NCBI GenBank assembly: GCA_020049775.1
Contig: JAGVLO010000007.1
Coordinates: 62,001 to 126,000 of the forward strand
Length of the DNA stretch: 64,000 nt
Source of the DNA: Alphaproteobacteria bacterium
Lineage (GTDB): Bacteria; Pseudomonadota; Alphaproteobacteria; Rickettsiales; SXRF01
Reading direction: 5' to 3'
Position 1 is the stretch's first letter; each line of letters begins with the position of its first letter. The notes below the pieces were generated by a model. The model was given only the letters and a program-made list of their open reading frames with translations, was not told the DNA's origin and made no database searches. The position numbers and the translations under genes were made by a program. Shown here one piece after another: positions 19,921 to 27,789 of this stretch.

Positions 19921-20598
19921 TCAGCAACATCCCTTAGCGTCGGACGTTGACTTTTCACAGCGGATGAGCTGGTAAAGAAGCCCTCCCGCCACCGTGCCGA
20001 TGAAAGGCGCAGTCATATATAGCCAGATTACGTTCAGGCTATCCTGATACAGCGCGGGCGCGAGCGATCGTGCAGGGTTCATGGACGCGCCGGTCAGCGA
20101 ACCGCCGACATAAGAACACAGGGCGACAATAGTGCCGATGGCGATGCCCGCCATTACCCCCTCCGCCCGCGTATCCGTTGCTACGGCAATAATCACGAAC
20201 ATCAGAAAGGCGGAAAGCACCACCTCCCATAAAAACGCTATGCCAAACTCCACCACGGGAATGGTAGCGCCATACCCTACCCCCTTTGGCATCAGCACAT
20301 AAAGCAGGCTCATAGCCGCAATGCCGCCGAGAAACTGCGCCAGCCAATAAGGAATCACCTGACGTGCGGGAAAATGCCTCGTTACTGCAAAGGCCAGTGT
20401 TACCGCCGGATTAAAATGCGCACCGGAAATATGCCCGACCGTGTAAATCATGGTTGCCACCACCGCGCCGAATATCAGGGGAATCGTAAAAACAGGGATT
20501 GTGCCGAAGCGCTCCGCAACCATAATCGCGCCGCAGCCGAAAAACAGGATAGCGAACGTACCGATACCTTCAGCGAGGCATTTTTGATACTGCATCAT
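19921..20598 (-). CDS. aqpS: Aquaglyceroporin (MIP family), arsenite channel AqpS-like
   Basis: 225-residue six-helix channel with both NPA boxes (HFNPAVT, residues 62-68; SMNPARS, 173-179). Context assigns the role: it is third in arsR-arsC-aqpS, the arrangement described in Sinorhizobium meliloti, where arsenite made by ArsC leaves the cell down its gradient through AqpS instead of an ArsB/Acr3 pump. Neither pump gene is nearby. It overlaps arsC by 4 bases. C-terminal KGCC might bind arsenite, which is speculative. Confidence 0.88.
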
Positions 20599-21074
20599 GC
20601 AAGCTGTCCTATCTCATGTAATCTGGTTTTTAACTGCTCGTTATTCATGGTCTCCACTGGCAGGGCCACCAGCGCCTTCACGCGCCGCTCGAGCATTGCG
20701 TAGATGCGGTCAAACTCCGCCTCAATTTCTGCCTGCGTACCCTGAAAATGCGCAGGGTCCGGCACGCCCCAGTGGGCTTTAACAGGACTACCGGGGAATA
20801 TCGGACATACCTCGCCCGCTGCATTGCCACAGACGGTGATTACAATATGCAGCTCGGTCTTATCTATAAACGCATCCCACGATTTGCTTTCGAAACCGGA
20901 TGACGGGATTTTATGACGCTGCAATGTGGCAAGGCTCATAGGGTGTACCTGCCCTGTGGGCTTGCTACCTGCGCTGAATGAGCAGAATCTGCCTTTGCCA
21001 AGCTCTTTGAGCAAGGCTTCCGCCATGATGCTGCGGCAGGAATTGCCGGTGCAAAGAAAAAGAACATTTAGCAT
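20595..21074 (-). CDS. arsC: Arsenate reductase, thioredoxin-coupled (LMW-phosphatase fold)
   Basis: Reduces arsenate to arsenite. The P-loop CX5R is C8-TGNSC-R14; the redox relay cysteines are Cys82 and Cys90, matching the Cys10/82/89 triad of Staphylococcus aureus ArsC; the general acid Asp106 sits in VPDPAHF. These relay cysteines distinguish it from plain tyrosine phosphatases. It overlaps arsR by 7 bases and aqpS by 4, so all three genes are translationally coupled. Confidence 0.93.
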   Translation of the reverse strand: MLNVLFLCTGNSCRSIMAEALLKELGKGRFCSFSAGSKPTGQVHPMSLATLQRHKIPSSGFESKSWDAFIDKTELHIVITVCGNAAGEVCPIFPGSPVKAHWGVPDPAHFQGTQAEIEAEFDRIYAMLERRVKALVALPVETMNNEQLKTRLHEIGQLA

Positions 21075-21403
21075 ATGCAGGACCTCAACAATTTTTCGAC
21101 ATCCTTGCAGGTGGATTTATTGATTGCACAGCAATCTTTCAGGAGGAACTGTACTAAATTCTGCAGCGCGTCGAATTTTACAAAATAGATAACCGAGCGC
21201 CCTTGTTTTTTGGATGATATCAAACCGGAATTAGTAAGTTGGGAGAGATGAAAAGACAGTGTGTTGTGCGGAATACCAAGCTTTTCGCTGAGTGCGCCCG
21301 CCGCTAATCCCTCTTTGCCATTCTCAACTAGAATACGTAGCGCCTGCAGGCGTGTTTCCTGCGAAAGCGCAGCAAATGCTGTAAGTGCGTTTTCTATTTG
21401 CAT
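21068..21403 (-). CDS. arsR: ArsR-family arsenic-responsive repressor
   Basis: 111-residue winged-helix repressor with recognition helix HNTLSFHLSQLTNSGLI. The classical alpha-3 ELCVC metal site is absent; instead cysteines lie at the C-terminus: Cys91-Cys92, Cys99, Cys109 and Cys111. This resembles the Acidithiobacillus ferrooxidans ArsR type (Cys95/96/102). The start codon is inside the operator palindrome and only 6 bases beyond the -10, so the mRNA is probably leaderless. No alternative start is available soon downstream. Confidence 0.93.
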   Translation of the reverse strand: MQIENALTAFAALSQETRLQALRILVENGKEGLAAGALSEKLGIPHNTLSFHLSQLTNSGLISSKKQGRSVIYFVKFDALQNLVQFLLKDCCAINKSTCKDVEKLLRSCIC

Positions 21404-25337: not shown

Positions 25338-26492
25338 ATGGGCGAAAAGAACATAACCCTCGTTATCACCGGCAGCATTGCTGCCGTAAAAAGCTATGAC
25401 CTGATACAGCAGTTACAGGCCAAAGGGATTGGTGTGTCTGTAGTGCTTACCGACTCAGCACAGCAATGGATTACCCCGGATGCTGCTAAAGTGCTGACCG
25501 CACTTCCCGTAATCACCAGCTCTGAAATACGCGCGCAGCCCGACCAGTTGAAGCAATTGCTGGCCAAAAGCGATGCGATAGTAGCCGCACCTGCCAGCGC
25601 AGACTTTATCAAGCAACTGGTCTATAACGACAGCGAATTGGCAAAAGCCATAAACAACTGCCAGAAACCTGTTGCCGTAGCACCCGCCATGAATGTGATG
25701 ATGTGGCAGCACCCCGCCACGCAGCGCAACAGCAAAAAACTCCTGTCACAGGGCGTTCAGATACTCGGACCCGTACTGGGTAAAATGGCCTGCGGTGACG
25801 AAGGCTATGGCCGTTTTATGGAACCATCGGACATTGCGCCTGCGCTGGAATCATTGCTTGCTGGCAAAAGCCACCCTGCATTCGAGTTGGTGAACAAATC
25901 GTTTTCGCCCAAGCCCGCCCTGCCCGCCATTGATGTGTCACTGGCGGCAAAGAAAAGTAAAAAACTTTTGCTGATGATACAGGGCGGCAAAGACGCGCTG
26001 GCCACATACGCCCTGATAAGCAGCCTGCGCTCGCGCGGGTATCAGGTTACTTGCGCCACCGGCGATGAAGCAACAAAACTCCTGCCCGCCGAGGGGCTGG
26101 CTACCATTTCTGGCTGTACTGCCTATAACAGGCATTATCAGGATGATGTGCAGGGCATGGAGCATATACGCCTGCCTGAACAATCGGACATCGTGCTTAT
26201 CACCCCTGCAACCTGTGACGGCGTAAAGGAAATGGCAGAGGGCGGCGCACAAAGCTTCCTTGGCTGTGCTTACCTTGCCACCAAGAAACCCGTGGTGCTT
26301 GTTCCCTCCACAGACATTGAAAAACAACCCAATGCTGCCGATCTCGAGCGCATACGGCAGGACGGCGTCAATATCCTGACCGTGCCAAAGCAGTTGCACC
26401 CCGCCAGCAAAGAGCGTGCAGACGCCATTGCCGACGGCATTGACGAACTCATAAAGCAACAGACGTTAGAGAGAAAAATCCATGGAAACTGA
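25338..26492 (+). CDS. coaC: Duplicated phosphopantothenoylcysteine decarboxylase (CoaC-CoaC')
   Basis: Flavin-dependent decarboxylase of coenzyme A synthesis, giving 4'-phosphopantetheine. 384 aa, twice a normal CoaC domain. Copy 1 (residues 1-177) has TGSIAAVKSYDL, APASAD, PAMN (Asn119) and ACGDEGYGR (Cys152), but the catalytic His position is Leu71. Copy 2 (~205-372) has MIQGGKDALATYAL, MEHIRL with His276 and TPATCD, but PSTD replaces PAMN (Asp326) and the Cys loop is gone. The active-site set is thus divided between the halves. It overlaps the CoaB-like gene by 11 bases. Function is inferred; the FMN chemistry is family knowledge. Confidence 0.88.
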   Translation: MGEKNITLVITGSIAAVKSYDLIQQLQAKGIGVSVVLTDSAQQWITPDAAKVLTALPVITSSEIRAQPDQLKQLLAKSDAIVAAPASADFIKQLVYNDSELAKAINNCQKPVAVAPAMNVMMWQHPATQRNSKKLLSQGVQILGPVLGKMACGDEGYGRFMEPSDIAPALESLLAGKSHPAFELVNKSFSPKPALPAIDVSLAAKKSKKLLLMIQGGKDALATYALISSLRSRGYQVTCATGDEATKLLPAEGLATISGCTAYNRHYQDDVQGMEHIRLPEQSDIVLITPATCDGVKEMAEGGAQSFLGCAYLATKKPVVLVPSTDIEKQPNAADLERIRQDGVNILTVPKQLHPASKERADAIADGIDELIKQQTLERKIHGN

Positions 26493-27789
26493 AGACCTCA
26501 GCGGCAAGAAAATACTGGTTATCGGCGGTAGCGCCCACGAAGTAATTGACGGCGTGCGCCATTATGCGAACCATGGCAGGCCAGAACAACATGGGCTGCA
26601 GGCGGCAAAGCGGCTTGCAGAACTTGGCGCAAAGGTAACACTGGTTACCACACGCCTGCATGATGGAATACCGCAGGGCATTGCCGTTGTATCCGAGGAC
26701 AGTAACCACAAAGCACTTGTTGGCGCCGAGTCATTGCTCAATGCCGCCGCGCAACAGGCACAGGCAACAGGCTATGATGCCGTGCTGCAACTTGCGAATA
26801 TTCCTGCCGTGAAAGCTGCGAAGCAATCCGAACATAAGCTGAAAGTCAAAAAGGATGCTGGCGCACTTATTCCGATGGATGTGGCGGGTAACATCGATGT
26901 CGTAGGCAGCCTGCAGGCAGCCTTTTCAGGCAGTGTTATTGCGGGCTATGACAGCCAGCAACAATGGTTTGCTTCCGGCGATGCTGGCCTTGCCAAATCA
27001 ATGGCGGATATTGCAAGCCAGACGGCCTCTGCGCCCCTGCCCGCCACGCAAGACAATGTCTCGGCACTTCCGCGCACCGGTGGCAAGCTCAGCGGCAAAA
27101 AAATTATCATCACCAGCGGCCCTACAGCTGAACCCATCAGCAGCAGCGGCGACGTTATCACCAACTTCTCATCAGGAAAACAGGGCCACGCCGTTGCAGA
27201 GTCGCTGGCGGCCATGGGCGCTCAAGTAGTGCTGGTATCCGGTCCCACCCATATCCCTGACCCGTCACACCCCAATATCACGACCATCCACACCGAATCT
27301 GCTCGCAACATGCGCGACGCCGTGGTAGCGCAATTGCCCGCTGATGCCTTTGTTGCCGTTGCCGCTGTTGCCGATTTTGGCATGGCTAATCCCGGCAAAC
27401 TCGCCCTCAAGCCGGCGGAGCTGGCAACACTTGAGCTATCGCAGAACCCTGACATCCTGCAAACCATAGGCACACACGGCAGCAAGCGTCCGTCTGTAGT
27501 AATAGGCTTTGCCGCCGAAACGCATGATTTACTCATCTATGCACGCGGCAAACTAGAGAAAAAAGGCGCCGATGCAATCTGCGCCAATCAGGTAGGCAGC
27601 GCCATGGTTGCACGCGGCAGCGACAAAAATCAGATTACATGGGTAAGCGCCGAAGGCAACGAACCGTGGGAAACCATGGGTAAGTCAGACGTAGGTAACC
27701 GTATCGGCGATAAAATCGCCCTGTTGCTGCAACGCAAGAAGTCCATATCTGCAGGCAGCGGCTCTTCCGGCCTCTTAAGTATGCTTTAA
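26482..27789 (+). CDS. coaB: Duplicated phosphopantothenate-cysteine ligase (CoaB'-CoaB)
   Basis: CTP-dependent ligase joining cysteine to 4'-phosphopantothenate. 435 aa, two CoaB-like Rossmann domains. The N-terminal copy (~8-170) keeps DGVRHYAN (Arg26, Asn30) and KVKK (121-124) but has lost GPT, SSGKxG and AAVAD. The C-terminal copy (~203-418) keeps SGPTAEP, TNFSSGKQG, AAVADF, NPDIL and GFAAET, but lacks the Arg of the DPVR motif and the KxKK lysines. In E. coli these parts lie in one CoaBC polypeptide. It is coupled to coaC upstream; about 10 Ser/Gly residues form a loose tail. Confidence 0.86.
   Translation: METEDLSGKKILVIGGSAHEVIDGVRHYANHGRPEQHGLQAAKRLAELGAKVTLVTTRLHDGIPQGIAVVSEDSNHKALVGAESLLNAAAQQAQATGYDAVLQLANIPAVKAAKQSEHKLKVKKDAGALIPMDVAGNIDVVGSLQAAFSGSVIAGYDSQQQWFASGDAGLAKSMADIASQTASAPLPATQDNVSALPRTGGKLSGKKIIITSGPTAEPISSSGDVITNFSSGKQGHAVAESLAAMGAQVVLVSGPTHIPDPSHPNITTIHTESARNMRDAVVAQLPADAFVAVAAVADFGMANPGKLALKPAELATLELSQNPDILQTIGTHGSKRPSVVIGFAAETHDLLIYARGKLEKKGADAICANQVGSAMVARGSDKNQITWVSAEGNEPWETMGKSDVGNRIGDKIALLLQRKKSISAGSGSSGLLSML

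Follow-up and report, generated by a model that had tools for sequence, protein, structure and literature searches.

Tandem CoaC and CoaB genes with active-site residues partitioned between fused copies in alphaproteobacterial genomes

Heteromeric phosphopantothenoylcysteine decarboxylase (PPCDC) has been presented as peculiar to certain yeasts. In canonical bacterial CoaBC (e.g., E. coli Dfp and the M. smegmatis protein, 6TGV), each chain has one CoaC and one CoaB domain, and the protein is a homododecamer with identical sites. Stand-alone CoaC and CoaB genes of the streptococcal type encode canonical, single-domain polypeptides, and they also occur in some genomes of the order to which the DNA studied here belongs. 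PPCDC of the AtHal3 type and of yeast builds each site from two neighboring protomers, one contributing the His and the other the Cys. The yeast enzyme takes its His from Hal3 or Vhs3 and its Cys and PXMNXXMW motif from Cab3; no subunit has the full catalytic set, and the trimer has one site (PMC4626798, PMC9604783). In M. smegmatis CoaB, a K-X-K-K loop that closes the site and Arg207, which gates it, are both contributed by the opposing protomer, while D281 binds a cation (PMC7794376).

The window analyzed here, a stretch of 64,000 nucleotides, carries two adjacent genes that match canonical CoaBC in their domains, in the pathway steps they would serve and, once the copies are summed, in their motifs, but that together comprise two CoaC and two CoaB domains with complementary losses. 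As with stand-alone CoaC and CoaB, the activities would lie on separate polypeptides, although neither polypeptide is canonical or single-domain. The first gene (25338–26492, + strand, 384 aa) contained two flavoprotein domains, as the preliminary description had it, and PF02441 (cut-off 22.7 bits) matched each half when the halves were searched separately. The next gene (26482–27789) was a tandem CoaB partitioned along the same lines, and its overlap with the CoaC tandem suggests that the two are translationally coupled. The pair would encode PPCDC (CoaC) and phosphopantothenate-cysteine ligase (CoaB) of the CoA pathway.

Table 1. Features of the CoaC and CoaB tandem genes in the window (donor and acceptor are predicted roles; residues are numbered within each protein).
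Feature	Position	Strand	Observations
CoaC copy 1 (C1, predicted acceptor half)	25338..25871	+	PF02441 74.4 bits alone; alignments; retention 7/7
C1, FMN-type motif			GSIAAxK (K18)
C1, Asn119	25692-25694	+	in PAMN
C1, Cys152	25791-25793	+	in ACGDEGYGR
CoaC copy 2 (C2, predicted donor half)	25956..26489	+	PF02441 45.2 bits alone; His 7/7, Asn and Cys 0/7 across tandems
C2, His276	26163-26165	+	in MEHIRL
CoaC/CoaB gene overlap, 11 bases	26482..26492	+	CoaB start codon inside the 3' end of the CoaC tandem; ORF list and sequence
CoaB copy 1 (B1, predicted donor half)	26482..26976	+	PF04127 50.8 bits alone; Arg 8/8, first Lys 8/8; dN/dS 0.21 (rough)
B1, Asp23			
B1, Arg26	26557-26559	+	equivalent of M. 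smegmatis R207
B1, K-loop	26836-26853	+	KLKVKK, residues 119-124
Linker between CoaB copies	26977..27084	+	dN/dS 0.96 (rough); almost no constraint
CoaB copy 2 (B2, predicted acceptor half)	27085..27741	+	PF04127 best stretch 203-387; Asp298-equivalent 9/9, Arg 0/9
B2, SSGK			retained, from residue 230
B2, Asp298	27373-27375	+	in AAVADF, retained
B2, GFAAET			retained

The catalytic His, the PXMN Asn and the redox Cys were all present in the CoaC chain, but divided over C1 and C2, neither of which had all three. Alignments with canonical proteins revealed that the catalytic His segment was missing from C1 through a deletion of about four residues, the earliest His of this copy being H125. The preliminary description was right that C1 has no catalytic His, but its reading of Leu71 as the substitute was slightly off, since the position is better seen as deleted than as substituted. 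Its numbering of Asn119, Cys152 and His276 was correct, and the alignments likewise confirmed that C2 has PSTD (residues 323–326) at the PAMN position and no Cys loop; the FMN motif of C2 was degenerate. A second His in C2 (residue 266, in an H-Y/F motif about 10 residues before the catalytic His) was invariant in all seven C2 copies and absent at this place from canonical CoaC, and may serve the active site or the interface in the tandem proteins specifically.

Canonical CoaBC provided the closest solved folds of both C1 and B2. For C1, alignment to 6TGV and AtHAL3a gave Z of 22–25, and the top fold matches held no separate representation of C2. AlphaFold2 modeled the CoaC tandem with a pLDDT of 92 and a pTM of 0.90. 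A fold search with this two-domain model returned GT-B-like matches only, at an rmsd of about 7 Å, which were uninformative on how the halves are placed relative to each other. For B2, the closest folds were E. coli and M. smegmatis CoaB (Z 26–31). In the AlphaFold2 model of the CoaB tandem (pTM 0.57), the halves were packed with low confidence and the K-loop had a pLDDT below 50.

In the CoaB tandem, the PF04127 match was strong for B2, and B1 had neither the CTP-site motifs (SSGK, AAVAD) nor the C-terminal third of the domain. B2 had Asp224 (27151–27153) at the Arg position, and its K-X-K-K loop was shortened and lost. The preliminary description had read the CoaC gene as a covalently fused pseudo-heteromer; the sequences support this for CoaC, but its scope was too narrow, as CoaB is likewise duplicated and split.

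The same architecture was looked for in alphaproteobacterial genomes, and further tandems were found in two orders, giving seven CoaC and nine CoaB tandems, spread over nine genomes and encoded either by separate genes or by one chain of about 800 aa. An alphaproteobacterial MAG of the window's family (G009, JANYES010000023.1) had a single 807-aa frame in the order C1-C2-B1-B2, the CoaC part of which was 57% identical to the CoaC tandem of the window, and G457, from another order, had an 800-aa chain with all four domains. The CoaC-tandem and CoaB-tandem genes were adjacent in three genomes of the order of G457 (G736, G737, and G743). Because separate adjacent genes recur in these three genomes and a single chain is found in G009 and G457, a sequencing frameshift was rejected as the sole cause of the two genes. 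G560 carried tandem CoaC and tandem CoaB at two loci, its C2 ending soon after the His segment. In G001, of the window's genus, the CoaB tandem was truncated by the contig, with the same neighbors as in the window (a DUF1223-like gene and mgsA).

G011 had a single canonical CoaC, and a CoaB tandem at another place was the only CoaB found in this genome, which is 87% complete, so that a canonical coaB might have been missed. In the relatives G004, G006, G007, G010, and G012, coaBC lay between mutS and dut, where G011 had coaC alone, and the tandem of G011 seems to replace the CoaB domain missing from that place. The order mutS-coaBC-dut is a conserved neighborhood in the window's family (L069; L046, L047, L049, L050, L053). 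Several other candidates were rejected as tandems: the further matches of 54–59 bits in the window's order and most of those of 55–67 bits in the class sample had frames of canonical CoaBC length, and G053, which scored above other canonical genomes, had one canonical CoaC gene lying close to an ordinary CoaB gene, the stand-alone arrangement mentioned above.

Comparison of the copies revealed the same partition throughout. C1 had lost the His in all seven proteins and kept the Asn, the Cys and the K18-equivalent in all seven, while C2 kept the His in 7/7 and had none of the other three in any (0/7). Six tandem CoaC proteins besides that of the window, from two orders, show exactly the same division, so the split is not due to chance; the tandem proteins are of one origin, and these counts are hence not independent trials. 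Of 42 CoaC columns conserved in canonical proteins, 25 were retained in C1 only, 7 in C2 only, 2 in both and 8 in neither, a complementary distribution (Fisher p = 0.0055). In CoaB, counted over the eight tandems with a readable B1 and over nine B2 copies, the Arg was present in 8/8 B1 and 0/9 B2 (Asp in 9/9), the first Lys of K-X-K-K in 8/8 and 0/9, and the metal Asp in 0/8 and 9/9. The K-X-K-K motif was degenerate in G009 and G457 (K-L-Q-K and K-I-Q-K). Over all CoaB columns, complementarity was not significant (p = 0.75), because most of the domain is gone from B1, and the CoaB case therefore rests on a few known residues. The mean identity within each copy group was 31–46%, and with members this divergent the survival of individual residues is informative. 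Both enzymes thus appear to be split alike, with one copy that would hold the reaction site and another that would hold the lent residues.

The tandems are very probably working enzymes in which each homo-oligomer has been turned into a covalent pseudo-heteromer with one composite site per pair. C1, with its FMN motif, PAMN Asn and redox Cys, would be the acceptor for CoaC, and B2, with residues for CTP, metal and the acyl site, the acceptor for CoaB. The putative donors C2 and B1 would retain the fold and the residues lent across the interface: His276 of C2 would complete the FMN site in C1, and Arg26 and the K-loop of B1 would serve the CTP site in B2. Both reciprocal sites would be dead, as C2 and B1 have no cofactor motifs and C1 and B2 no residues to lend; such double loss is expected when selection is relaxed on one site out of two. 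FMN-dependent PPC decarboxylation is the predicted activity of the CoaC tandem. Three points are predictions made from sequence: contact of the lent residues with the partner site, the two activities, and the make-up of the oligomer. In a three-fold trimer, two kinds of domain cannot alternate, so not every C1 would have a C2 on the right side; some sites would then be missing, as in the yeast single-site trimer, or the assembly would be different.

It could be argued that C1 and B2 are self-sufficient without the His and the Arg, and that the second copies have no more than a structural or regulatory role. C1 and B2 were indeed better conserved relative to canonical proteins (34 and 37% identity) than C2 and B1 (21 and 24%), and the constant Asp at the Arg position of B2 could be an adaptation. 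However, the residues lost from C1 and B2 are conserved in canonical proteins, and the equivalents of the His and the Arg are critical elsewhere. Furthermore, the few invariant positions of C2 were clustered around H..GxEHI..PE and included the catalytic His and an Ile, those of B1 included the Asp, the Arg and the first Lys, and G560 has dropped most of C2 yet retains the His segment. Self-sufficient acceptors are consequently considered improbable. All nine B2 copies had the same Asp in place of the lost Arg (residue 224) and an invariant His about 39 residues further on (residue 263), which may be compensating changes.

A second canonical coaBC, which had been named beforehand as a finding that would speak against the divided-site reading, was not found in the window's genome by PF02441 and PF04127 searches. 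In this genome (2.54 Mb, rated 100% complete), there was no further PF04127 match above the cut-off, and the one other PF02441 match above the cut-off was a stand-alone gene, which, by its score and length, we take to be UbiX; CoaD and CoaE were both present. In the four tandem-bearing genomes covered by PF02441 searches for it, G000 (the window's genome), G009, G457, and G560, a canonical coaBC was not found. These results bear on another explanation, that the CoaC tandem acts on a different substrate, such as a peptidyl cysteine in the manner of EpiD or CypD, or regulates a protein as Hal3 does. The weak matches of copy 2 to CypD and MrsD are in line with it, but copy 1 matched CoaBC best, and the gene, which overlaps CoaB or is joined to it in one frame, is the sole CoaC in its genome; in G743, it and the CoaB tandem gene cluster on one strand with a gene for a CoaD-CoaE fusion. 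A role outside CoA synthesis is thus very unlikely. In G743 (L108:22-1872, L102), the genes downstream of the tandems on the same strand encode a Peptidase_M23-domain protein and a 617-aa CoaD/CoaE protein, the latter an unusual CoA-pathway fusion with both domains and additional C-terminal sequence.

Between the window (G000) and G001, dN/dS was 0.21 for B1, 0.96 for the linker and 0.12 for B2, values that are rough as dS was near saturation, with a clear contrast to the linker. Both CoaB halves are under purifying selection, and the linker between them is nearly neutral. Between G000 and G009, identity was 58% for C2 and 56% for C1; C2 is conserved and not decaying. The loss of canonical motifs in each copy would also be expected of relic or decaying genes in cells that obtain CoA precursors from elsewhere. 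Against such decay stand the purifying selection on the CoaB halves, the equal conservation of C2 and C1, frames that are open in two orders, and the presence of CoaD and CoaE with no other CoaB or CoaC, which make relic genes the least credible of the explanations considered, with hardly any probability left to them.

In phylogenetic trees, C1, C2, B1, and B2 each formed one group, which fits a single origin of the tandems, though long branches make the finer points of the trees unsafe. The CoaC part of G009 grouped with that of the window, while both CoaB copies of G009 grouped with G457 from the other order (L045, L082), and relatives within G009's own genus have canonical coaBC. This mosaic grouping and the canonical relatives point to horizontal transfer and module exchange. 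The order C1-C2-B1-B2 could have arisen either by insertion of a coaBC into the linker of a second one or by two separate domain duplications. Read as C1-[C2-B1]-B2, it would represent a donor CoaBC protomer nested in the linker of an acceptor protomer. On balance, it seems rather probable that a whole CoaBC protomer has been turned into a dedicated donor pseudoenzyme, possibly nested in the linker of the catalytic protomer, with both enzymes covalently symmetry-broken in the same way, and that the system has moved between orders.

The CoaC tandem resembled Hal3/Vhs3-Cab3 in the complementary distribution of the His vs. the Asn and Cys (7/7 tandems), a likeness in working for which no common descent is claimed. 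The yeast copies are separate genes and free subunits, whereas the bacterial copies are fused. Cab3 retains a non-functional His, while in C1 the His is deleted; unlike in Hal3/Cab3, the tandem donor C2 is also devoid of the FMN-site motif, and CoaB is split too. In fungi, Hal3 and Vhs3 moonlight as phosphatase inhibitors. The preliminary description knew of no bacterial case, and a literature search confined to open-access PMC turned up no earlier account; nor did it yield a precedent for the extension of the split to CoaB. For CoaC, yeast already provides the principle; the bacterial covalent form and the parallel CoaB split look new.

If the proposed explanation is true, the tandems represent an independent, bacterial heteromeric PPCDC fused in one chain. 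They also make the decay of composite interface active sites by reciprocal loss after duplication a testable question, for which several stages are available: a split of CoaB only, a split of both enzymes in separate genes, a four-domain chain, and a donor reduced to scarcely more than its His segment. Most tandem proteins scored below the NCBIfam curated cut-off for CoaBC, and genes of this kind can be overlooked or wrongly named when pathways are annotated with domain models. Among 71 relatives, 11 had no PF02441 match (including G017, G024, G027, G028, G032, G047, and G067); several of these are rated 97–99% complete, and CoaBC may be missing or replaced there. Elsewhere in the window (19921–21403, - strand), genes for an ArsR-like regulator, a low-molecular-weight arsenate reductase-like protein and an aquaporin-like channel form a likely arsenic-resistance cluster.
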